The notes beneath the pieces are model-generated. The model saw only the letters and a program-made list of their open reading frames with translations. It ran no database searches and had not been told where the DNA came from. The translations under genes were made by a program, and so were the position numbers. Positions 5,244-38,108 of a DNA stretch of 64,000 nt are shown here, piece by piece. Position 1 is the first letter of the stretch. Every line of letters starts with the position of its first letter. Origin of the DNA: Clostridia bacterium (lineage in GTDB: Bacteria > Bacillota > Clostridia > Oscillospirales > Acutalibacteraceae). The stretch spans positions 1 to 64,000 of the forward strand of contig JAGASD010000011.1 in assembly GCA_017621885.1 (NCBI GenBank). Reading direction: 5' to 3'.

Positions 5244-5495
5244 ATTATAAGAATTATATCAGTAATAAAAAATGAGATAGCAAAAATAAAAGAGTTTCTC
5301 GAATTTGTTTTGACAGATATTCATGGAGAATGTGTTTTAAATATTAACGGTGTTGAAGTTATTGCAACCTTTGCAGAAAAACCTAACAAAGAAATCTTTT
5401 CACGGATGAAAGAAATTCTACTCGGTGATTCGCACATTCGACAAAGTAATGCCCCTGATATTAAACTAAAGAAAAATATCAAGGAGGCGGTTTAA
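5244..5495 (+). CDS. Small protein upstream of the recombinase, probable non-ATG start
   Basis: This unrecognised protein has about 83 residues. The open frame extends well upstream of its first TTG (5310), and AAGGAG (5234-5238) sits 5 to 8 bases before ATT (5244) and ATA (5247), so translation probably begins at one of these rare codons. The TTG at 5310 has no ribosome binding site. The product has an Ile-rich N terminus, a central beta-like stretch containing GECVLNINGVEV, and a Lys-rich tail. Its TAA shares one base with the recombinase ATG (5495), which implies coupled translation. It may be a recombination accessory factor; that is inference from position only. Confidence 0.55.
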   Translation: MIRIISVIKNEIAKIKEFLEFVLTDIHGECVLNINGVEVIATFAEKPNKEIFSRMKEILLGDSHIRQSNAPDIKLKKNIKEAV

Positions 5496-7090
5496 TGTCA
5501 AAGCGAGTGTGCTGTCTTTACAGAGTTTCAACGGGTAAGCAGGTTGATTATGACAGCAACAATGAAGCAGATATTCCGATGCAGAGAAAGGCTTGCCATA
5601 AATTTGCAAGTGAAATGGGTTGGGATATTGTTCACGAAGAACAGGAAGATGGTGTTTCCGGTCATAAGGTGCGAGCTGAAAATCGTGATAAAATTCAAAT
5701 AATAAAGGACCTTGCGAGAAAGAAAAAGTTTGATATTCTGCTTGTGTTTATGTTTGACCGTATCGGCAGAATCGCAGATGAAACACCTTTTGTTGTTGAA
5801 TGGTTTGTCAAAAATGGTATTGAGGTTTGGAGCACACAAGAGGGCGAACAGAGATTTGATAATCACATTGACAAGCTCTTAAACTATATCCGCTTTTGGC
5901 AGGCTGACGGTGAAAGTGAGAAAACATCAGTACGAACAAAAACAAGCCTTGGTCAGTTAGTTGAAGCCGGTCATTTCAAGGGCGGCGTTGCCGCCTTTGG
6001 ATATGACCTCGTGAAAAGTGGTAGATATAATAAAAGAAAGCACGAGCTTTACGATTTAAAAGTTAATCCCGATGAAGCTACTGTTGTTAAGATAATCTTT
6101 GACAAGTACACGCAAGAGGGTTACGGTGCTCATAGAATTACAACTTGGCTTAATAACAATGGTTACCGAGCAATAACAGGTAAAATGTGGCACGAGGCTA
6201 CTATAAGAGGTATTCTATGCAACCTGACTTATACGGGTGTACTTCGTAGTGGTGATGCTCGTTCAGAGGTTATACCCGAACTGCAGATAATACCGTCTGA
6301 ACAGTTTGAAAGAGCAAGAATGATAATGCAAGAGCGTTCCGATAGGAAGAAAGAAAATCCTACGGTACCACTTAACACAAAAGGAAAATCACTTGTGTCC
6401 GGCAAGGTTTACTGTGGGCATTGCGGCTCAAGGCTGAATCTTACAACAAGGGGAAGATACCGTAAAAGAAAAGACGGAACTGTTGATACAACGAAGCGAA
6501 TCAGATATGCATGCTACGGAAAAAGCAGAAAGCAAACTGAATGTGACGGTCAGTCGGGTTACACCTTGCATATTCTTGATGATTTAATTGATGAAATTGT
6601 CCGTGACATTTTCAGGAGGATGAAAGGTGTATCAAAATCTGATGTAATCAAGCTCCGTTATGCTGATGAGCTTGAAGTGAGAAAAGCAAGGCTGAATATG
6701 CTGAAAGCAGATTACAATAAAGAGTTTGAAAATCTTACCATACTGAAATCTGAGGTTGTTAAGGCTATCAAAGGTGAAAGCTCATTTTCGGCTGATACTC
6801 TTTCGGAATTGATTACAGAATCCGAGAAAGAGTGTGAAAGGCTTTTTGATTTATGCACTGATGCTGAAAAGGATGTTGTTGACAGCGAGAGTGTACTTAA
6901 AACTTTATCTGACAGCTTTGATGAACTGATTTCCCGCGCGGAGCTTTATGATGAGACAAGCTTTGAAAAGAAAAAAATGATTGTTAATTGCTTAATTAAA
7001 CGGGTTGAGGTTAGCAAAGGATACAAACTGAAAGTTGAGTTTAATATTGACTTTGAGCAGTTTATGGTGGGAATTGATAAGGTGGCTTGA
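5495..7090 (+). CDS. Large serine recombinase (integrase) of the integrated element
   Basis: A 531-residue large serine recombinase. The N-terminal resolvase domain (1-150) has the nucleophile Ser12 in YRVSTGKQ and the FDRIGRIADET segment. The recombinase domain follows (about 160-290, GGVAAFGYDL...NNNGYRAITGKMW), then a zinc ribbon (C-x2-C near 307-310 and a second Cys pair near 340-350), and a C-terminal coiled coil (380-470). The enzyme integrates and, with a directionality factor, excises the element. AAGGAGG lies just upstream within the preceding gene. It is the last element gene, so the att junction should lie just after 7090. All catalytic landmarks are intact. Confidence 0.95.
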   Translation: MSKRVCCLYRVSTGKQVDYDSNNEADIPMQRKACHKFASEMGWDIVHEEQEDGVSGHKVRAENRDKIQIIKDLARKKKFDILLVFMFDRIGRIADETPFVVEWFVKNGIEVWSTQEGEQRFDNHIDKLLNYIRFWQADGESEKTSVRTKTSLGQLVEAGHFKGGVAAFGYDLVKSGRYNKRKHELYDLKVNPDEATVVKIIFDKYTQEGYGAHRITTWLNNNGYRAITGKMWHEATIRGILCNLTYTGVLRSGDARSEVIPELQIIPSEQFERARMIMQERSDRKKENPTVPLNTKGKSLVSGKVYCGHCGSRLNLTTRGRYRKRKDGTVDTTKRIRYACYGKSRKQTECDGQSGYTLHILDDLIDEIVRDIFRRMKGVSKSDVIKLRYADELEVRKARLNMLKADYNKEFENLTILKSEVVKAIKGESSFSADTLSELITESEKECERLFDLCTDAEKDVVDSESVLKTLSDSFDELISRAELYDETSFEKKKMIVNCLIKRVEVSKGYKLKVEFNIDFEQFMVGIDKVA

Positions 7091-7092
7091 AT

Positions 7093-7106
7093 AAAAGAAT
7101 TCTTTT
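7093..7106. repeat. Perfect 14-bp palindrome after the recombinase
   Basis: AAAAGAATTCTTTT begins 2 bases after the recombinase stop. It has no loop, so it is a poor terminator. It could mark or overlap the element's attachment site, but only a comparison with an empty site can show that. Confidence 0.35.
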
Positions 7107-7268
7107 AATATATCAATCCCTTTGAAATAACACGCAAATGGCATGGAGAATCCTTATCGCTTATTTTGCTATTTTAACATTCATATGATAAAATTAAAAA
7201 AATCCGTAAAAATCTGTAAGATTTCACATGTGAAAAGAATCATATAAGTGAAAGGTGGTGATAACGCA
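7107..7268. other. Probable junction between element and host chromosome
   Basis: This non-coding, AT-rich stretch lies between the recombinase and the sigma-factor gene. Large serine recombinases usually sit next to one att site, so an element end is expected here. I see no gene and no clear consensus promoter. Confidence 0.4.
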
Positions 7269-7769
7269 ATGGAATTTGAAGAAGTATACCGTAAATATTT
7301 TAACGATGTTTATTTATATGTCCTCAGACTTTCAGGAGATGAACATATCGCAGAAGAAATAACGAGCGACACATTTTATAAGGCTCTTTATTCTATCAAC
7401 AAATTCCGCGGAGACTGCGATATAAGAGTCTGGCTTTGTCAAATAGCAAAAAACAGCTATTTCGCATACATCAAGAAAAGAAGAAATACTGCAAATCTTG
7501 ATGATGAGGAAGTGCTGAATTTAATAGATGATAATATTTTAATTGACGATGCCATTATTCAAAAAGATGAGTCTATGCAAATCAAAAAAATTCTGCACAC
7601 TATCTCTGAGCCATACAGAGAGGTGTTTATGTGGCGAGTTTTTGCAGAATTAAGTTTTAAACAGATAGGACAGATATTTGGCAAATCTGATAATTGGGCT
7701 TGCGTTACATATCACCGTTCAAAATCAATGATTCAACAAAGATTGGAGGAAAACAACAATGAGAAATGA
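7269..7769 (+). CDS. ECF-type RNA polymerase sigma factor
   Basis: A 166-residue ECF sigma factor with region 2 (YRKYFNDVYLYVLRL...EEITSDTFYKAL...FRGDCDIRVWLCQIAKN) and region 4 (SEPYREVFMWRVFAELSFKQIGQIFGKSDNWACVTYHR). It redirects RNA polymerase to its regulon, usually for envelope stress. I chose ATG 7269 because AAAGGTGGTGA (7251-7261) is placed ideally before it; an in-frame GTG at 7248 lies upstream of that site. The next gene, its anti-sigma factor, overlaps by 11 bp. Confidence 0.92.
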   Translation: MEFEEVYRKYFNDVYLYVLRLSGDEHIAEEITSDTFYKALYSINKFRGDCDIRVWLCQIAKNSYFAYIKKRRNTANLDDEEVLNLIDDNILIDDAIIQKDESMQIKKILHTISEPYREVFMWRVFAELSFKQIGQIFGKSDNWACVTYHRSKSMIQQRLEENNNEK

Positions 7770-8502
7770 ATGTAATATAATTCGTGACATTTTACCCCTT
7801 TACGCAGAAGATATGGTCAGTGACGATACCGTTTCCTTTGTTGAGGAACATCTTCAAACTTGTAATGAATGTTCTTTAATGTATGAACGAATTAAAGAAG
7901 GTGGTATCGTTATGAAAAACGAAAATAAAAGCACAGAACAGGAAGTTGTAAGCATTTTAAAAAAATTGAGAAAAAAAGTTTTTAAAAGGTTCTGCATTAT
8001 ATTCTTGGCTATATGTATCGGCGTTGTGGGACTTATTGCAACATTACAGGTATTTCCTGTTTATAGGGTTTATCAATACAGTTCTAAGGATGATTTTGTA
8101 AATGAAAACAAGATAATGTTGGCATACATCGGTACTCCCGGAGACAGAAAAATTGCAACCGATATTGTAAATTATGCAAGTATTCATGTTTTCTCTGATA
8201 CAAGTCATACATACGAAGAAAATTTAGAGCTTTATGGAGAATTAGGAAGATATCCATTTGATTTACATTACTTTGACGGAACAAGAGGCGAACTAAATGC
8301 ACTTTATGAAACACATTCTATAGAACTCTTATCTGCACATATAGATGAAAATCATGGATATATGTTTGTAGAACATTCTCAGCAAGCCATCGGTGAAAAT
8401 GGTGAGGTTGTTGCAGGTAGTTGGGACATTCTCTCTTTATGGGAAATCGAAAAAGATGCTGACGGTAATTGGAAAGTAGTAAGCATAAGAGAAGGTGCAT
8501 AA
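7759..8502 (+). CDS. Membrane anti-sigma factor with zf-HC2 domain
   Basis: A 247-residue protein with an N-terminal anti-sigma zinc-finger domain (about 1-45): first Cys near residue 5, LPLYAEDMVSDD, then HLQTCNEC. One transmembrane helix follows (about 78-97, CIIFLAICIGVVGLIATL), then an extracellular domain of about 145 residues that I do not recognise. It presumably holds the upstream sigma factor at the membrane until a signal is received. The 11-bp overlap with the sigma gene implies coupling. A hairpin 26 bases after the stop ends the transcript. Confidence 0.88.
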   Translation: MRNECNIIRDILPLYAEDMVSDDTVSFVEEHLQTCNECSLMYERIKEGGIVMKNENKSTEQEVVSILKKLRKKVFKRFCIIFLAICIGVVGLIATLQVFPVYRVYQYSSKDDFVNENKIMLAYIGTPGDRKIATDIVNYASIHVFSDTSHTYEENLELYGELGRYPFDLHYFDGTRGELNALYETHSIELLSAHIDENHGYMFVEHSQQAIGENGEVVAGSWDILSLWEIEKDADGNWKVVSIREGA

Positions 8503-21636: not shown

Positions 21637-21670
21637 ACTTGAGAAAACAAAAACAAGGAGGTTGTTTGCT

Positions 21671-22819
21671 ATGGCAAACCGTATTGTATTAAACACAATT
21701 TCATACCACGGAAAGGGTGCCGTTGAGAACATTGTTCCCGAGCTTCAGAGCCGCGGCTTCAAAAAAGCTTTTGTTTGCGTTGACCCCGACCTTATTAAAT
21801 TCGGTGTAAGCGCAAAGGTTACCGATCTTTTAGATAAAGCCGGTTTCCCCTACTCAGTTTTCAGCGAAATCAAGGCTAACCCCACAATTGAGAACGTTCT
21901 TGCGGGCGTTGAGGCATTCAAAGCAAGCGACGTCGACTGTATTGTTGCTATCGGCGGCGGTTCTGCAATGGATACTGCAAAGGCTATCGGTATCATTATT
22001 GAAAATCGCGAATTTGCAGACGTAAGAAGCCTTGAGGGCGTTGCACCCACAAAGAATCACGCAGTTTTCACAATTGCAGTTCCCACAACTGCAGGTACAG
22101 CTGCAGAGGTTACAATCAACTATGTTATCACTGACGTTGAAAAGAAACGCAAATTCGTTTGTGTTGACGTTCACGATATTCCCGAGGTTGCAGTTGTTGA
22201 CCCCGATATGACAGCAACAATGCCTAAGGGTCTTACCGCTTCAACAGGTATGGATGCTCTCACCCACGCTATTGAAGGCTATATCACAAAGGGCGCTTGG
22301 GAAATGACAGATATGTTCCACCTTAAAGCAATTGAGCTTATTGCAAAGCATCTTCCCGGTGCTTGCGAAAACACTGCTGAAGGCAGAGAGGGTATGGCTC
22401 TTGCACAGTACATTGCAGGACAGGGCTTCTCAAACGTAGGTCTCGGCATTGTTCACAGTATGGCTCACGGTCTCGGTGCTCTTTATGACACACCCCACGG
22501 CGTTGCTAACGCAATTCTTCTTCCTTCAATTATGGAATACAACGCAGAATGCACAGGCGACAAATACCGCGATATTGCAAAAGCAATGGGAGTTGAGGGT
22601 ACAGAGGCAATGTCAATTGAAGATGCAAGAAAAGCAGCAGTTGACGCAGTTGCAGCACTTGCAGAAAAGGTTGGTATTCCCAAAGACCTCAAGGGTATTC
22701 TTAAAGAAGAGGACGTTCAGTTCCTTTCAGAAAGTGCATTCGCAGATGCTTGCCGTCCCGGTAACCCCAAGGACACAAGCGTTGAAGAAATCGCAGCACT
22801 TTACAGAGCACTCCTTTAA
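21671..22819 (+). CDS. fucO: Lactaldehyde reductase / iron-containing alcohol dehydrogenase FucO
   Basis: A 382-residue group III alcohol dehydrogenase. It follows E. coli FucO closely along its length from memory: ADVRSLEG, PTTAGTAAEVTINYVITD, KFVCVDVHDIP, TGMDALTHAIEGYIT, GFSNVGLGIVHSMAHGLG, YDTPHGVANAILLP. The NAD motif is AIGGGSAMDTAKA, and the iron ligands are an Asp (EVAVVDPDM region) and three His (DALTHAIE, HSMAHGLG, DTPHG). It reduces lactaldehyde from fucose or rhamnose breakdown to 1,2-propanediol, reoxidising NADH. ATG 21671 follows AAGGAGG. The Rex-type operator upstream fits this redox role. Confidence 0.95.
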   Translation: MANRIVLNTISYHGKGAVENIVPELQSRGFKKAFVCVDPDLIKFGVSAKVTDLLDKAGFPYSVFSEIKANPTIENVLAGVEAFKASDVDCIVAIGGGSAMDTAKAIGIIIENREFADVRSLEGVAPTKNHAVFTIAVPTTAGTAAEVTINYVITDVEKKRKFVCVDVHDIPEVAVVDPDMTATMPKGLTASTGMDALTHAIEGYITKGAWEMTDMFHLKAIELIAKHLPGACENTAEGREGMALAQYIAGQGFSNVGLGIVHSMAHGLGALYDTPHGVANAILLPSIMEYNAECTGDKYRDIAKAMGVEGTEAMSIEDARKAAVDAVAALAEKVGIPKDLKGILKEEDVQFLSESAFADACRPGNPKDTSVEEIAALYRALL

Positions 22820-22836
22820 TTCACAGTTAAAACAAC

Positions 22837-22869
22837 AAAACCGCTTGACCGAAAGGTCAGGCGGTTTTT
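22837..22869. terminator. Bidirectional terminator between fucO and the TIR-TPR gene
   Basis: AAAACCGCTTGACC (22837-22850) pairs with GGTCAGGCGGTTTT (22855-22868), loop GAAA, with T-rich sequence on both strands. It serves both convergent genes. Confidence 0.9.
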
Positions 22870-22890
22870 CGTTGTGTGCTTTAACTCTTG

Positions 22891-23277
22891 TTATTCTCCG
22901 AGTAGTTCTTTCAACTCTTTTATCCTCTCTGCGGTTTTTATGGTCTTAGGATCGTTTTCACCAAGCGTTTTTACTCTGCTTACATAAACTTTTTCGAAAA
23001 ATGAGAGAGAGGAGATATAATCACCAATCTCTTTATGACAAAGTGCGTACGAGTGCAAAGAGGAGAGCGTTTCCGCATGTTCTTCACCCAACAACTGAGC
23101 ACGAACATTATAAAGTTTTCTGTAAAATTCCAAAGCCTTTTTGTAGTCTTTCACAGTATAAAAACTATGTGCAAGATAATTTAATGTTAAAATACTGTTT
23201 GAGTTCTCCGCGCCAAATATTTTACAACTGACGTTGTAAGCTTTTTCAAAAAGCTCTGAGGCTTTTTTTGTGCTCAC
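22891..23277 (-). CDS. TIR-TPR segment 4: last TPR units and capping helix
   Basis: 128 codons: the end of one TPR unit, two further units, and a polar capping helix ending IKELKELLGE. It opens with an internal ATG and no ribosome binding site, so it is the displaced C terminus of the interrupted protein. The stop is 22 bases from the shared terminator with fucO. Confidence 0.72.
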   Translation of the reverse strand: MSTKKASELFEKAYNVSCKIFGAENSNSILTLNYLAHSFYTVKDYKKALEFYRKLYNVRAQLLGEEHAETLSSLHSYALCHKEIGDYISSLSFFEKVYVSRVKTLGENDPKTIKTAERIKELKELLGE

Positions 23278-24268
23278 CCAATCTACCGTAAGTTTTTGCC
23301 AGAAAATTTAATGTTTTAAACGTATCCGTATGTTCTTCGCCAAGTGTCTGATAACGAAGCTTGTACACTTCCTCAAATAGTTCCGAAGCTTTTTTTAGTT
23401 CGCCTAAAAGTACATAAGTAAGTGCACAGTCGTTTAAAGAAGAAAGTGTGTCTGAGTTTGTTCCTCCCAAGGCTTTACAACGCATAGTGTATGTTTTTTC
23501 GTGAAGCTGTAAAGCTTGTTTGTGTTTTTTTAATTTATTGCAGGTGTCAGCTGATTTACTTAGTATCTTAAGTGTTTGAGGGTGTTCTTGACCTAACACC
23601 TTGCAACGAAACGTATATAATTTTTCGTAAAGTTCCAAAGCATTCTCAAGGTTACCCAATTGATCGTTAGCGTATGCTACTGCGTATAATGCTGACAGAG
23701 TATCGGGGTGTTCTTCGCCCAAAACTTTACATTGGATTGAATATAATTTTGCGCAAATCTCTTTCGCCTTTTGATGTTTTTTTAATTTTATACATAAGCC
23801 TGCGAGGTCGTTTAGCGTCGCGAGTGTGTCGGGGTACTCGTCGCCAAGTGCTTTGCAACGAAGGTCATATACTTTTTCTTTGAATTCAAAGGCTTTTTTA
23901 GGGTCACCCAATTTAATGTATGTGTGTGAAACTTTGTCTAAAGCGGCAAGTGTAAGAATATTTTCTTCACCAAATTTTTTGCAATGAACGTTGTATGTTT
24001 TTTCTTGTAGTTCTGCTGCTTTGCAATAGTTGCCCAAGTTAACATATATAGAAGTGAGTGCGTTTAAAGCTTTAAGTGTGCGAATATGTTCCTCACCAAG
24101 TGTTTTGCAGCGAAGTTTGTAAGCTTTTTCCGTGAATTCTAAAGCCTCGTTGTAGTTACCTAATTTGTTATGAATAGTAGCATAATTACTTAAAGAGGTA
24201 AGCGTATTTGGATGCTCTTCACCAAGCACTTTGCGGCGAAGACTATAAACTCTTTCAAATAAGATCAA
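23246..24268 (-). CDS. TIR-TPR segment 3: eight TPR units
   Basis: 340 codons made almost wholly of 42-residue TPR units with the motif KxLGEEHPxTL between helix pairs. The units have diverged enough that they are not simple recent duplications. The frame ends in GEHKKSLRAF because the A7 tract 23263-23269 is one base long; removing one A gives GEHKKASELFEKAYNVSC. TPR superhelices bind peptides or proteins, and here they probably sense the trigger of the TIR domains. Confidence 0.72.
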   Translation of the reverse strand: MILFERVYSLRRKVLGEEHPNTLTSLSNYATIHNKLGNYNEALEFTEKAYKLRCKTLGEEHIRTLKALNALTSIYVNLGNYCKAAELQEKTYNVHCKKFGEENILTLAALDKVSHTYIKLGDPKKAFEFKEKVYDLRCKALGDEYPDTLATLNDLAGLCIKLKKHQKAKEICAKLYSIQCKVLGEEHPDTLSALYAVAYANDQLGNLENALELYEKLYTFRCKVLGQEHPQTLKILSKSADTCNKLKKHKQALQLHEKTYTMRCKALGGTNSDTLSSLNDCALTYVLLGELKKASELFEEVYKLRYQTLGEEHTDTFKTLNFLAKTYGRLGEHKKSLRAF

Positions 24269-25059
24269 AGCTTTTTGTAGTCGCCAATGTTACTATAGGT
24301 AGAAGCTATATTGTTTAAACTTATAAGTGTATCGGGATGTTCTTCACCGAAAGTGTTACTAAAAAAGGTGTATACTTTTTCAGTAAGTTCCAAAGCTTTT
24401 TTGTATTCGCCCAAATTACTGTAACTAATAGCAAGATTATGTATCGCGGTAAGTGTATCAGGGCACTCTTCCCCATAAGTCTCCACCATATAATCCGCAT
24501 ATTTTTCTGCCCATACTACTGCTTTTCTGTAATCCAACTGTACACCTACACCAATAAAATACATATCACGAAGCTTTTCCGTTGCCTCGGGAAGTCCTGC
24601 TTCTGCGGCAGATGTAATAAGCTCAAGGGCAAATTCGCGGTTAACCTCAACGTCAATACCGTCAAGGTATGCAAGGCCGATAAGGAAATTATGCTCAGGT
24701 GTGTTGTTTGCTTGTGTAGCAATTTTTGTTACAGAGTCAAGAAGCTGTGTATAGAATTCTGTAGCTTCAGGATTTACACATTCGGGTATATCACGATATT
24801 TTTCTTTTAATGCATTTTTATCGGTTTCAACCATTTCGGCAGGGAGAATATTAATACCCGATTTTTGTGCAGCAGGGTATTCTTCACCCATAACAAAGTT
24901 AGGCTCTTCAAGAATGTTAGGTGTAACCAAAAGTGTAAAAAGCTGACTGTTATGTAAGATTTTGTCAATACCTTCCTTAAAGCTTTCACCGGGAGTTAAA
25001 AATTCATCAAACCATATTGCAATGTCACGGCAATCAGGATTTGAATGGATAAGCTTCAT
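24265..25059 (-). CDS. TIR-TPR segment 2: rest of second TIR, Sel1-like and first TPR units
   Basis: 264 codons in the next frame. The second TIR continues (CRDIAIWFDEFLTPGESF with a conserved Glu/Asp-rich loop, TLLVTPNILEEPN, PAAQKSGINILPAEM). A linker follows, then a Sel1-like region (NFLIGLAYLDGI..., ALELITSAAEAGLPEA) and two TPR units. It stops inside GDYKKL because the A5 run 24272-24276 is one base short. A -1 shift there would restore YKKALILFERVYSLRRK. No ribosome binding site stands before its ATG, so it is probably not translated independently. Confidence 0.72.
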   Translation of the reverse strand: MKLIHSNPDCRDIAIWFDEFLTPGESFKEGIDKILHNSQLFTLLVTPNILEEPNFVMGEEYPAAQKSGINILPAEMVETDKNALKEKYRDIPECVNPEATEFYTQLLDSVTKIATQANNTPEHNFLIGLAYLDGIDVEVNREFALELITSAAEAGLPEATEKLRDMYFIGVGVQLDYRKAVVWAEKYADYMVETYGEECPDTLTAIHNLAISYSNLGEYKKALELTEKVYTFFSNTFGEEHPDTLISLNNIASTYSNIGDYKKL

Positions 25060-25610
25060 AAGCCGGTTTGCGTATTTCTGTCCTTTTTACGGTAGCTTAA
25101 GAATATGTAAGCATCAAAAGCTGCGCGCACGCGCTTTGCCATTTCATCACTGATAAGTATTGCTTCAAGATGCTTTTTCAGCTTCTCTTTATATGAAATT
25201 TCAGTTGGGTCAGTACTGTAAGGGTTAAGAAACTGCAATTCACCGAATTTATCGGGTTTTGAATACAACTCATCAAGCCCTGACTCCATCATAATCGGTA
25301 AAACAGGGATGTGTTTTTCCATAGCGTAACGGAAATCCTCATCCATTGCGCGGTTTGGAGTTGTAAGGAGTTTAAAAGTAACGGGAATAACAAAAAGGTT
25401 GTTTCTGCCAAGGTCAGTTTCCTTTTCATCCTCAGCAATCGCTTCACACATATCCTCGGTATAATAAATGGCGCAATCGTGGGTTTTGAAAATATCATCA
25501 CAGATTTTCTTGAAACATTTTTCAAAATCATCAGGATGACAAGTAAAGTATACCCTTGTTTTTTTGCCAATATCCAAGTGATTTTTAGTTTCAATCTTAA
25601 TGTTTGCCAT
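25056..25610 (-). CDS. TIR-TPR segment 1: N-terminal TIR-like domain and start of second TIR
   Basis: 184 codons from ATG 25610. Residues about 15-135 form a TIR/SEFIR-like alpha/beta domain (KTRVYFTCHPDDFEKCF, AIYYTEDM, NLFVIPVTFKLLTTPNRAMD, IPVLPIMM). Residues about 168-178, DAYIFLSYRKKDR, are the first strand of a second TIR domain, which breaks off at a frameshift in the A3 run 25075-25077. Adding one A gives the expected RKYANRLMKLIHSNP and leads into segment 2. If made alone, the product would be a single TIR-like module. The ribosome binding site is weak. Confidence 0.75.
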   Translation of the reverse strand: MANIKIETKNHLDIGKKTRVYFTCHPDDFEKCFKKICDDIFKTHDCAIYYTEDMCEAIAEDEKETDLGRNNLFVIPVTFKLLTTPNRAMDEDFRYAMEKHIPVLPIMMESGLDELYSKPDKFGELQFLNPYSTDPTEISYKEKLKKHLEAILISDEMAKRVRAAFDAYIFLSYRKKDRNTQTGL

Positions 25611-25743
25611 AATTTTTTCTCATTTAAATTAAACGCTTTGCTGTTGTTTACAAGGATATTATAAAACTCATTTTTGTTGCATTTACAGGGGGGTACAATA
25701 ATGCGTAAGACATAACGCAAAGCCCGACTTTAAAATCCGCAGA

Positions 25744-26457
25744 TTAAAAAAGCTCAAATATCATACAAACAAACGGAACAAACACAAGTCCCGGAAGAAG
25801 GTCGGCCACCTTTATTTTTGTTATATTCAAAAGATTCAGTCCCAATGCAGTAATCATTACAGACCCTGCACAAACAAGCTCAGCTATGGCAAAATCACTC
25901 AAAAACGAACCCAAAAGCATTGAGAGTGCAACAAGCATCCCCTGAAAAACAAAAACGAACGCTGCCGCAAACACAACACCCACTCCAAGGCTTGCCGCAA
26001 GCATTGCAGAGGAAATCAAATCAAGAACAGATTTTGTGTAAAGCATCTGATTGTCGCCTGAAATACCTGCATTCATTGAGCCAACAATTGTCATTGCACC
26101 AACACAAAAAAGGAGCGACGCCGTGACAAAGCCTTGAGAAAAGGTTGATTTTTCGGAATCAGCTTTTTTATTTTTCTTCTGAAGCTTGTCGCCTAAAGAC
26201 ACAAGCTTGCCGTCGATATTCAAAAGAGTACCAACAATAGCGCCGAGCACAAGGGAAATTATCATAACAAGCTGATTTTCACCCTTGATTATTCCTCCGA
26301 TACCGATTGCAACCGTACAAAGACCAATTGCAGTCATAACCGCACTTGTTAATTTTTCGGGGATTTGCTTTTTCAGAAGAAGCCCTACGGAGCTTCCTAT
26401 AATTACTGTTGCGGTATTTACAAATACACCGCTGAATTTTATTAACACTTCAGGCAT
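25744..26457 (-). CDS. DUF554 family membrane protein
   Basis: A 237-residue polytopic protein of the DUF554 (YdfK/YqgA) family, with about six to seven membrane segments and the typical start FSGVFVNTATVIIGSSVGLLL; GAMTIVGSMNAG and TKSVLDLISSAMLAA are further family-like stretches. Function is unknown; transport is likely. I chose ATG 26457 because GGAGGT lies 7 bases before it. It overlaps the end of the rluA-like gene by 8 bp and is last in a three-gene operon with the phosphate cotransporter. Confidence 0.9.
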   Translation of the reverse strand: MPEVLIKFSGVFVNTATVIIGSSVGLLLKKQIPEKLTSAVMTAIGLCTVAIGIGGIIKGENQLVMIISLVLGAIVGTLLNIDGKLVSLGDKLQKKNKKADSEKSTFSQGFVTASLLFCVGAMTIVGSMNAGISGDNQMLYTKSVLDLISSAMLAASLGVGVVFAAAFVFVFQGMLVALSMLLGSFLSDFAIAELVCAGSVMITALGLNLLNITKIKVADLLPGLVFVPFVCMIFELF

Positions 26458-27121
26458 TTTTCTTACCTCCGAACAAGCTCCATGGATATTCATTAAAATC
26501 CGGAGCGGATTCAAAACACATTTTTTCGTTTGTTACGGGATGAGTAAAGGTTATTCTGCAGGAATGAAGCGCAATATCCTTACCCTCTCCATCTTTACTA
26601 CCGTATTTTCTGTCACCCGTAAGGGGCATTTTTCTTGAAGAAAACTGCACTCTTATCTGGTGAGTTCTCCCTGTATGAAGAAGCACCCGAACCATTGCTT
26701 TGTTTTCTGTTTTATCAAGAAGCTCGTATTCAAGCGAGGCCTCGCGCACGCCCTTACGCATTCTTTTCACAACGTAAGAACGATTCTTTTTTGAATCCTT
26801 AAAAAGCAAATCTTTATATACACCTTTATCTTCTTCGGGAATGCCGTCTGTAACAGCCAGATATTCCTTGAAAAATCTACCCTCGGCAATATCCCTTGAA
26901 AGAGCACCTGCGCTTTGTTTATTGTCCGCAAAAACCATTACACCGCCCACATTTCTGTCAAGACGGTGTAAAAGATGCACGGGTTTTCCTTTATAATCAC
27001 TGAGAATACCAACAATCCCCTTTTCACCGTTCAGGGCATCCTCACTGAGAATACCCTTTGGCTTTTCAAGGACGATTATATCGCTATCCTCATACAAAAT
27101 TTTCAAATCAATATTATGCAT
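26450..27121 (-). CDS. RluA-family RNA pseudouridine synthase
   Basis: A 223-residue pseudouridine synthase. The catalytic motif HRLDRNVGGVMVFA carries the Asp near residue 56; other family blocks are VLEKPKGILS, FFKEYLAV, VLLHTGRTHQIRVQ and PLTGDRKYG. There is no S4 domain, as in the short RluA/TruC-like members. It converts uridines in rRNA or tRNA; which site cannot be told. ATG 27121 is chosen because upstream codons overlap the transporter gene and the family N terminus begins here. It overlaps its neighbours by 8 bp on both sides. Confidence 0.92.
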   Translation of the reverse strand: MHNIDLKILYEDSDIIVLEKPKGILSEDALNGEKGIVGILSDYKGKPVHLLHRLDRNVGGVMVFADNKQSAGALSRDIAEGRFFKEYLAVTDGIPEEDKGVYKDLLFKDSKKNRSYVVKRMRKGVREASLEYELLDKTENKAMVRVLLHTGRTHQIRVQFSSRKMPLTGDRKYGSKDGEGKDIALHSCRITFTHPVTNEKMCFESAPDFNEYPWSLFGGKKNA

Positions 27122-35299: not shown

Positions 35300-36544
35300 T
35301 TATACTATATAATCTTTATATTTCTCAAGCACAAAAATCTCTGCGGTTATGTCAAGCAAAAGACCTTCTGCGGTGTAATCTTCGCTGTGAACAACGCCTG
35401 TTTTGCGGAGCTCTGCGCCCGCACCGCCCATTGAAAACGGAAAAAGAATCTTAACGCGCTTCCTTGTGGGAGGCAAAGCCTTTGCAATTTTTTCAAGAAG
35501 CTCAGAAAGTCCTTCTCCTGTTTTAGCGGAAACTCTGACGGAGTTCCCTACTATCGGAATGTCGGACTCCGTAACAGCATCACATTTATTGAGAACGGTT
35601 ATTATAGGCTTGTCACCGCATCCCAGCTCATCAAGAAGCTCATTAGTTACTCTGTAATGCTCAGCACATTCTTCACTTGAAGCGTCGCATACGTTAAGGA
35701 TAACGTTTGCATCCACCGCTTCATCAAGAGTGGATTTAAATGCTTCAACAAGCTTATGTGGAAGTCTTCTTATAAAGCCAACGGTATCAATCAGCAAAAC
35801 CGTGTTACCGTCAGGCAAGGTCAGGGCTCTTGCCGTAGGGTCAAGAGTCGCAAAAAGCTTATTCTCCGCAAGCACGCCTGCATCTGTAAGGGTATTCATA
35901 AGCGTAGATTTACCGGCATTGGTGTAACCGACAAGAGCAACTGTAACCACACCGTCTTTTTTTCGTCTTTCTCTGTGGCGGGTGCGTCTTTCATCCAGAG
36001 CTTTTAAATCCTCCGTTAATGCAGAAATTCTTCGTCTTATGTGACGGCGGTCTGTTTCAAGCTTTGTTTCACCGGGACCCCTTGTACCGATACCGCCGCC
36101 AAGCCTTGACATTGATACACCCTTACCGCCAAGACGAGGTAAAGCATATTTCAACTGAGCAAGCTCAACCTGAAGCTTACCCTCACCCGAAAGCGCTCGC
36201 TGTGCAAAAATATCAAGAATAAGCGTCGTTCTGTCAATAACGCGAACATCAGTGATTGTTTCAATATTTTTTTGCTGTGCCGGTGACAGCTCACCGTCAA
36301 TAATAACAAGGTCGGGCTTTTCTTTCTCACAAAAATCCGATAATTCTTCAAGCTTTCCTCTGCCAAGATAAGTACCCGGCTCAGGCGCTTCACGTTTTTG
36401 TGTCATTTCGCACACAACCTCTGCACCTGCTGTTTTAGCAAGCTCGGTTAATTCCGCAAGGGAGGAATCAACGTCAAACTCACCGGTATCAACAGACACA
36501 AGCACGGCTCTTTCCGCCTCTGTTTTATTCTCATAAAAATCCAT
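35300..36544 (-). CDS. hflX: GTPase HflX
   Basis: A 414-residue ribosome-associated GTPase. The HflX N-terminal domain has GTYLGRGKLEEL and DGELSPAQQKNIE, then LGGGIGTRGPGETKLETDRR, a coiled coil (RRRISALTEDLKALDERR), and the G domain: G1 GYTNAGKST, G3 DTVGF and G4 NKCD. HflX splits stalled or stressed ribosomes. ATG 36544 is preferred over GTG 36553. It is transcribed from just after a terminator at 36562-36596. Confidence 0.97.
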   Translation of the reverse strand: MDFYENKTEAERAVLVSVDTGEFDVDSSLAELTELAKTAGAEVVCEMTQKREAPEPGTYLGRGKLEELSDFCEKEKPDLVIIDGELSPAQQKNIETITDVRVIDRTTLILDIFAQRALSGEGKLQVELAQLKYALPRLGGKGVSMSRLGGGIGTRGPGETKLETDRRHIRRRISALTEDLKALDERRTRHRERRKKDGVVTVALVGYTNAGKSTLMNTLTDAGVLAENKLFATLDPTARALTLPDGNTVLLIDTVGFIRRLPHKLVEAFKSTLDEAVDANVILNVCDASSEECAEHYRVTNELLDELGCGDKPIITVLNKCDAVTESDIPIVGNSVRVSAKTGEGLSELLEKIAKALPPTRKRVKILFPFSMGGAGAELRKTGVVHSEDYTAEGLLLDITAEIFVLEKYKDYIV

Positions 36545-36561
36545 AATAATCACCGTAGTTT

Positions 36562-36596
36562 AAAAACCCTGTTTGCCATAAGGTAAACAGGGTTTT
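36562..36596. terminator. Terminator of the polysaccharide kinase operon
   Basis: AAAACCCTGTTT (36563-36574) pairs with AAACAGGGTTTT (36585-36596). T runs exist on both strands; it ends the minus-strand operon whose last stop codon is at 36615. Confidence 0.85.
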
Positions 36597-36614
36597 AATA
36601 ATTTAAAATATGGC

Positions 36615-38108
36615 TTACTTTCTCTTTTTGTGATTTCTGCTTCCGTAATAATAAGAAGAGCCGTAATATCCGCCGTAACGGTTTGAGAAATAACCGCCTG
36701 CTTTTTCGGTAGCAATCTTCAGTGTGCCTGTACCTGCACGGTTGTAAATGCATCCGAAAATATCTGCCTTTGTTGTTGAAATATCGCTCAATGCATATTC
36801 AATCTGAGGAATAGCAACTTTTTCTTCAGCAGTAACGAATACGATTGTATCTGTGTAGTTAGCAACGATAGCAGCGTCAGCAACAACACCTGCGGGAGGA
36901 CAGTCAATAATAACATAGTCAAAGTTTTTCTTAGCGTCTGCAACAATCTTAGCCATAGCATCAGAAGCAAGTGTTTCTGAGGGGTCGGCAACCGCAGAAG
37001 CAGAAACAAGAAGATAAAGATTATACTTCTCAATATACTTAACTGATTCCTCAAAAGTTTTATTACCGGTAACTATATCGTAAATACCCTTTTCGCCTTC
37101 AAGTGAAACACCCAAGGTTTTGCAAACCGCAGGCTTTCTGAGGTCAGCATCCATAAGAAGAACTGATTTACCGCTCTTTGCAAGTGAAAGTGCAATATTT
37201 GTTGAGCAGGTTGTTTTACCCTCACTCTCAGTTGAGCTTGTGATTGCAAAAACAGAGTAACCCTTTTTGAGCTTTGCGTTTTCAAACTTTGTTCTGATAA
37301 GCTTGAAGGTTTCAATGAACGGCAGACCAACGTTTCTGTCTGTAATAAGGAGTCTTGAACGGTCACCCTTCTTTTTATTTTTGATATCGGAAACGGTTGC
37401 AATGATATCAATATTGAACCTATTCTTAATATCTTCGGTTGAGAGCAATTTATTCTGGATTTTTGCAGTAATAAGAATAATAATTACCGCAAGAGCAGCA
37501 CCTATAATAAAGCCTGCCGCTGTGTAAAGAAGTGTAGATGAGTCTGCTGCAAGCTCAGACTGAGTCGCACTGTCGGCAACGCTGATATTAGCAGTCGGGA
37601 ACGCATTCTTTGCAATTTCGGGATAAACGCTCTGAATTGCAGTTGCAACAACGTAAGCAAGCTCTTTATCTTCAGATTTAACCGTAATATTGATAAGTGT
37701 TGAATCGGCAACAAGCTCAACGTTCATCATATCGCGAAGCTGTTCTTTGCCGTAGGTTTTACCTGTCTGAGCCTTAACGTTAGCTTGTACGGCTGTAATA
37801 AAGTCATTACCGCGCTGAATAAGTGTTTTAAAGTTTGTAGCAATAGTAGTCGAAGCCTGTGCGTCACTGGCGGTAGTATATGTACCTGCGGCACCTACAA
37901 CGTCTCTGTCCTTGTTAGAAACGTTAAAAATAAGGTTTGAAGTATATGATTCAGAATAAGTGAGTTTAGCAATACCGAAACCACTCACGCTGAACGCAAC
38001 AACAAAAATGACAATTAACCACCATTTGCCGATAAGCTGGCGCAAAAATTTAAGAATAGGCTCAAGACCTATCGCTTCATCAGAAGTTCTTTTTTCTTCG
38101 TAAGCCAT
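36615..38108 (-). CDS. Fused Wzz/BY-kinase: chain-length regulator and tyrosine kinase for polysaccharide synthesis
   Basis: A protein of about 497 residues. The N-terminal Wzz domain has two membrane helices (about 28-50 and 175-200) around an extracytoplasmic region. The C-terminal BY-kinase has Walker A SSTESEGKTT, Walker A' LLMDADLRKP, and Walker B YVIIDCPPAG. The tail is a Tyr cluster (YGGYYGSSYYYGS), the autophosphorylation site. In most Firmicutes the two parts are separate genes; fusion is the Gram-negative style but also occurs in Clostridia. ATG 38108 and 38111 are both possible. It is last in the pqqD-like island. Confidence 0.92.
   Translation of the reverse strand: MAYEEKRTSDEAIGLEPILKFLRQLIGKWWLIVIFVVAFSVSGFGIAKLTYSESYTSNLIFNVSNKDRDVVGAAGTYTTASDAQASTTIATNFKTLIQRGNDFITAVQANVKAQTGKTYGKEQLRDMMNVELVADSTLINITVKSEDKELAYVVATAIQSVYPEIAKNAFPTANISVADSATQSELAADSSTLLYTAAGFIIGAALAVIIILITAKIQNKLLSTEDIKNRFNIDIIATVSDIKNKKKGDRSRLLITDRNVGLPFIETFKLIRTKFENAKLKKGYSVFAITSSTESEGKTTCSTNIALSLAKSGKSVLLMDADLRKPAVCKTLGVSLEGEKGIYDIVTGNKTFEESVKYIEKYNLYLLVSASAVADPSETLASDAMAKIVADAKKNFDYVIIDCPPAGVVADAAIVANYTDTIVFVTAEEKVAIPQIEYALSDISTTKADIFGCIYNRAGTGTLKIATEKAGGYFSNRYGGYYGSSYYYGSRNHKKRK

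Follow-up and report, generated by a model that had tools for sequence, protein, structure and literature searches.

The window analyzed here, a 64,000-nucleotide stretch of contig JAGASD010000011.1 from a Clostridia bacterium, carries four overlapping minus-strand reading frames of 184, 264, 340 and 128 aa between positions 25610 and 22891. A preliminary description had read these frames as one split TIR-TIR-TPR gene, and offered recent inactivation, phase variation by A-tract length or rescue by slippage as explanations. The locus raises the question of whether a gene has been lost, switched off or kept readable by some other route, and whether its breaks belong to the organism or to the assembly. 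We assign a probability of roughly 0.76 to the reading that a laterally acquired TIR-TIR-Sel1-TPR gene, lying between an Fe-ADH and a DUF554 gene, was recently inactivated by three single-base length changes, likely through slippage. It resembles the common kind of recent gene loss more than a novel switch.

Table 1. Features of the broken locus and its flanks (window coordinates)
Feature	Position	Strand	Basis
DUF554 gene, neighbor on one side	25744..26514	-	Pfam
Piece 1: TIR1 domain, 184 aa, stops a few codons into TIR2	25056..25610	-	Frame, relatives' alignment, profile comparison
Break 1: frame shifts where TIR2 begins, within or next to a short A run	25059..25088	-	Conserved motif of 29 relatives
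Piece 2: TIR2 lacking the first strand, with a Sel1 repeat and the opening TPR units, 264 aa	24265..25059	-	Frame, Pfam, alignment, unit period
Break 2: frame shifts at the lysine-lysine codons of one TPR unit; step 125, not 126	24265..24281	-	Repeat spacing
Piece 3: TPR array, 340 aa	23246..24268	-	TPR_12 E 2e-73, unit period
Break 3: frame shifts at the lysine-lysine codons of a TPR unit further on; steps total 379 = 3x126+1	23246..23269	-	Repeat spacing
Piece 4: final TPR units through to the end of the gene, 128 aa	22891..23277	-	TPR_12 E 1.8e-21, unit period
Hairpin then T-rich DNA past the gene end, terminator-like by eye	22837..22869	-	Sequence; absent from the consensus terminator scan list
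Fe-ADH gene, neighbor on the other side	21662..22819	+	Pfam

The single-gene reading holds: the four frames are pieces of one TIR-TIR-Sel1-TPR gene, and together amount to 916 codons with overlaps counted. Pieces 2, 3 and 4 all match TPR_12/TPR_10 in Pfam, the TPR profiles still being well matched, and piece 2 also matches Sel1. Against TIR_2, piece 2 reached 21.7 bits, under the Pfam cut-off of 28 bits, and a Pfam scan of piece 1 matched no model. A profile built from piece 1 together with 14 relatives can, however, be aligned to that of TIR2 over 69 columns (hhalign probability 95, E 4e-8), which makes the name TIR-TIR-TPR reasonable. The domain matches of the pieces follow the layout of the TIR-TPR family, a TIR domain and then a TPR array; among 29 aligned relatives, Pfam gave TIR_2 in 29/29, TPR_12 in 27/29 and Sel1 in 26/29.

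Two of the three breaks are visible without translation, from the unit period alone. On the coding strand the TPR units recur every 126 nt with two exceptions (24351 to 24226, 125 nt; 23470 to 23091, 379 nt), and a DNA repeat finder reported odd spacings of 125, 253 and 127 in the array. Since the aberrant steps are 125 and 379 (three periods plus one), breaks 2 and 3 each amount to a net change of one base in length, and each falls at the lysine-lysine codons of a TPR unit, where the preliminary description had placed them. Break 1 emerges by comparison only, from a motif at the start of TIR2 that is invariant or nearly so in 29 relatives, which were chosen as intact. The tracts now read A3, A5 and A7 at breaks 1, 2 and 3, respectively. 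The pieces contain no stop codon other than those that the shifts cause, again as first described. The breaks are thus real features of the assembled sequence, where their positions are directly observed, and they are presumably present in the organism itself.

The junctions deserve attention in their own right, as stop and start codons overlap at the first two (ATGA at 25059-25056, TTGA at 24268-24265), an arrangement that would suit translation of the pieces as separate, coupled subunits. However, the stop after break 1 overlaps a Met codon that is nearly invariant in the intact protein, which makes the overlap a by-product, and piece 2 would begin without a first TIR strand that is nearly invariant in 14 relatives. 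A simple scan also detected no ribosome-binding-like site at any of the three junctions. We regard separate subunits as extremely improbable.

To place the broken copy among its relatives, genome contigs were scanned with piece 1. This yielded 108 relatives, of which 79 distinct TIR1-selected loci were kept, most of them in metagenome-assembled genomes that derive from gut samples, those of ruminants included. An interruption test, which can miss a break before a divergent C-terminus, detected none in 77 of the 79 loci, five of which run off a contig end. As for the other two, L086 meets an assembly gap, and L090 has an in-frame stop in TIR2 that the test missed in just this way and that was caught by its short frame and by reading on. 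In L090 the stop is a TGA at 733-735, within a conserved TIR2 motif, and the frame is otherwise open; the TGA may be a nonsense mutation or reflect a different genetic code. A further copy, in genome G617, has one frame change in TIR2, and loss therefore occurs occasionally in the family. With three breaks, the window copy is the most extreme case seen. Intact homologs thus exist (77/79 loci uninterrupted) while the window's own copy is disrupted by three frame changes, as is expected of a pseudogene.

The best relative of piece 1, at locus L016, shares 84% amino acid identity with it. TIR1 identity ranges from 71 to 84% in the 14 closest of the 16 relatives compared, and TPR piece 3 stands at 51% or less. 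No relative was found in viral contigs (searched with piece 2), plasmids or phages, nor was another genome of the same species identified. Further matches past the stop in L043, L063 and L079 proved in all three to belong to another gene of the TIR-TIR family lying in tandem; these second genes have open frames that start at most 64 nt from the stop of the first gene. Several copies lie on contigs C15, C20, C37, C39 and C47 of genome G214, and their matches end near the same conserved TIR stretch. This pattern is as if near-identical TIR segments with differing C-termini had split the assembly, and sensor swapping is a possible reading of it. Together these loci point to a sporadic TIR-TIR-Sel1-TPR family, mostly of gut and rumen Clostridia, in which the TIR part is conserved, the TPR part variable and tandem copies occur in some genomes.

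The accuracy of the assembly was gauged by homology. ORFs of at least 120 aa from 40 stretches (675 kb) of the same-genus genome G013 were mapped onto the window and 19 other stretches of the window's own genome (395 kb in all), and 91 of them matched over 60% of their length. Only one of the 91 was flagged as broken, at window 36210-36709; it runs antisense to the ORF at 35300-36553 and is counted as an antisense shadow, leaving no real frame break. Counted without overlap, the matched stretches add up to 94.7 kb, in which there are 695 A/T runs of five or more. If breaks fell uniformly, the 95% limit on their rate would be 0.032 per kb, giving an expectation below 0.09 for the 2.72 kb of the gene and a chance of about 1e-4 of seeing three, although the mapped ORFs are conserved genes, whereas the TIR-TPR locus is accessory, and some may themselves be shadows. 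Reverse mapping of the genome's own ORFs onto G013 flagged 1/89, with the difference in the copy of the relative. In a scan of 10 large window genes, nine matched known families and one had no match. A codon-score scan of adjacent frames returned 108 pairs that mostly resembled operon neighbors; it was dropped as an error test, and homology mapping was preferred.

These results bear out the earlier expectation that general sequence error is less likely and that other genes are intact, the latter in the sample of 91 mapped ORFs. Errors of consensus or assembly might still be confined to this accessory, A-rich locus, for example through mixed strains, with the gene intact in the organism. The draft genome consists of 64 contigs, two of the three changes lie in A runs of five to seven, typical of homopolymer error, and A runs of five or more are about twice as dense in the gene as in 203 other long ORFs from a sample of the genome (11.4 versus 5.4 per kb). 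The 695 A/T runs in the mapped stretches nevertheless passed without a real frame break, the run at break 1 is very short, and a single TIR1 match in the genome makes a collapse of close paralogs unlikely. On balance, we consider local assembly error an unlikely explanation.

The same A-richness bears on whether the tracts act as a switch, toggling the receptor on and off within a population by slippage. In all, 31 A runs of five or more lie in the gene, a density that is also about double that of 29 intact relatives (5.5 per kb); being A-rich, it is therefore a place where slippage is favored, and two of its breaks share the same TPR unit position. Slipped-strand phase-variable genes are similar in that homopolymer length alters their frame, but differ in that the tracts here are short and common elsewhere in the genome. 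The 203 other long ORFs contain 574 A runs of six or more, the longest A run in the 29 intact relatives is five to nine, and four other A7 runs in the gene itself are all in frame. At the break-1 position, a 9-nt stretch, the 29 relatives carry A runs of just one to four. The available text of PMC11868660 requires of a phase-variable locus repeat numbers that genome composition does not predict, and treats the C7 tract of one meningococcal gene as a site that is mutation-prone by accident. By that measure A3, A5 and A7 are unremarkable in length against the genome background, as judged by raw run counts. Three tracts would furthermore have to be correct at once. In the portions of the literature on phase variation and defense that were available, no TIR-TPR case was found, which is no proof of absence. 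We therefore hold phase variation to be very unlikely. A looser idea, to which we give just as little weight, is that an A-rich TPR immune receptor could be a mutation-prone and slowly reversible locus, whose lysine-coded A runs would lead to frequent loss and occasional regain and so maintain a reservoir of off copies in populations.

Programmed ribosomal or transcriptional slippage, by contrast, would restore a full-length product from the sequence as it stands. While A-rich sequence at two of the sites permits some slippage in principle, the frame change is not conserved, as might be expected of a programmed frameshift, the breaks not being common to the other loci (77/79 uninterrupted). 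Rescue would require slippage at three sites and in two directions, so that the yields multiply. The A7 tract also falls below the length of nine A or T at which selection against transcriptional slippage is commonly evident, although shorter runs may slip in some bacteria (PMC1088944, available text). Such rescue seems scarcely credible. Among the three explanations first offered, recent inactivation is thus the one that stands, given the intact homologs, an outlier copy and the lack of further decay, and neither the switch nor the rescue is supported.

How the gene came to this position was approached through its flanks. The TIR1 domain had no match in 20 of the 21 genomes of the genus, many of which are incomplete; in the sole exception, G007, the matches lie on contigs other than the one that carries DUF554. 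When ten same-genus loci were fetched around DUF554, Fe-ADH stood beside it in four; the two matches there are 50 to 778 nt apart, and the intervening DNA gave neither a TIR nor a TPR match. These are empty sites, and the contrast with the occupied site of the window is a direct observation. At the other six, Fe-ADH has been rearranged away or lies outside the stretch, and no TIR match is listed there. The junction (window 22820-25743; L127 to L130) varies in length among the four same-genus loci, and is perhaps a tolerated insertion site. Across the taxonomic family, 18 of 398 genomes have a TIR1 match (the window's own included), the best ones coming from outside the genus. Such a scattered occurrence is consistent with lateral transfer, by which the gene was probably acquired.

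The age of the loss can be bounded from the pieces themselves. No further stop is seen in the 916 codons, which limits neutral change since inactivation to under about 2 to 4% (95% limit); therefore either the loss is recent or selection ended recently. Comparison of dN/dS with relatives is uninformative because synonymous sites are near saturation, even the closest of 16 relatives standing at 84% amino acid identity in TIR1 and 51% in TPR piece 3. Low codon scores of the TPR pieces were considered as a sign of decay and rejected, as the 13 intact relatives that were scored likewise have lower values in the TPR part than in the TIR part, if only slightly in some.

Recent inactivation of a laterally acquired gene would then have proceeded in few steps. 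The gene would have been inserted between Fe-ADH and DUF554 in the chromosome, most likely through lateral transfer, and its frame would then have been broken by three single-base length changes, two of which fall in A runs that encode lysines in TPR units. Ordinary replication slippage together with loss of selection is the likely cause, and slippage probably produced the breaks; with selection lost, the second and third hits could follow the first freely. The locus would accordingly show an immune-type gene being gained and soon lost again by a gut-type bacterium. The intact members of the family are assayable, and the broken copy itself adds little.

By analogy with TIR proteins in general, from which a role in phage defense is deduced, the intact protein is probably a phage-sensing immune receptor. 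In intact relatives the TPR array would bind a trigger, upon which TIR2 would consume or convert NAD+. The conserved TIR1 and variable TPR would suit a receptor whose output stays fixed while its sensor varies. One glutamate is invariant in 15/15 TIR2 rows, the window included, although the alignment fails to put it exactly opposite the known catalytic glutamate of AbTIR. The TIR2 profile matches AbTIR-type TIR NADases (PDB 8g83 and 7uwg, E 0.0017 and 0.00079), a weak and partial-length similarity; 7uwg has the same letters as 8g83 in the aligned stretch.

Known systems offer partial parallels. Bacterial TIR-TPR proteins include group 6 of a TIR survey, which in the available text of PMC7075850 is mainly actinobacterial, whereas the present family belongs mostly to gut and rumen Clostridia and has two TIR domains and a Sel1 repeat. 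No precedent for TIR-TIR-TPR was found in the available portions of PMC9092222, PMC13142454 and PMC7159879. PADLOC models did not match the four broken pieces, and in the 29 relatives gave TIR-level matches to SAVED-TIR (25), PDC-S66 (18) and ThsB (PDLC00420; 16). ThsB is not known to have a TPR array. The locus also differs from Thoeris in its surroundings, as no ThsA-like gene is present among the four neighbors scanned, which encode Fe-ADH, GH125, DUF554 and a pseudouridine synthase; by Pfam, none of these four is a defense gene.

The 20 near neighbors of 11 relatives form no clear defense island; they are a mixture that takes in glycosidases, transporters, sporulation genes and others, and includes a single TIR protein, a single RyR-domain protein and a single transposase. 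The RyR-domain protein is encoded at L025 8587-9975, directly after an intact TIR-TPR relative. Phage RyR proteins have been linked to ADP-ribose immune signals in the available text of a preprint (PMC13232231). RyR-like neighbors suspected by eye at L001 and L211 had no Pfam match.

A few other genes may be recorded here. The same genome has another TIR gene of a different kind, with TIR and leucine-rich repeats, on contig C19 (18958-19287; locus L001). A PrsW-type protease gene adjoins it, and a PrsW gene also adjoins the relative in L019. Elsewhere in the window, at 5495-8502, a large serine recombinase gene precedes one sigma-70-like and one zinc-finger (anti-sigma-like) gene.
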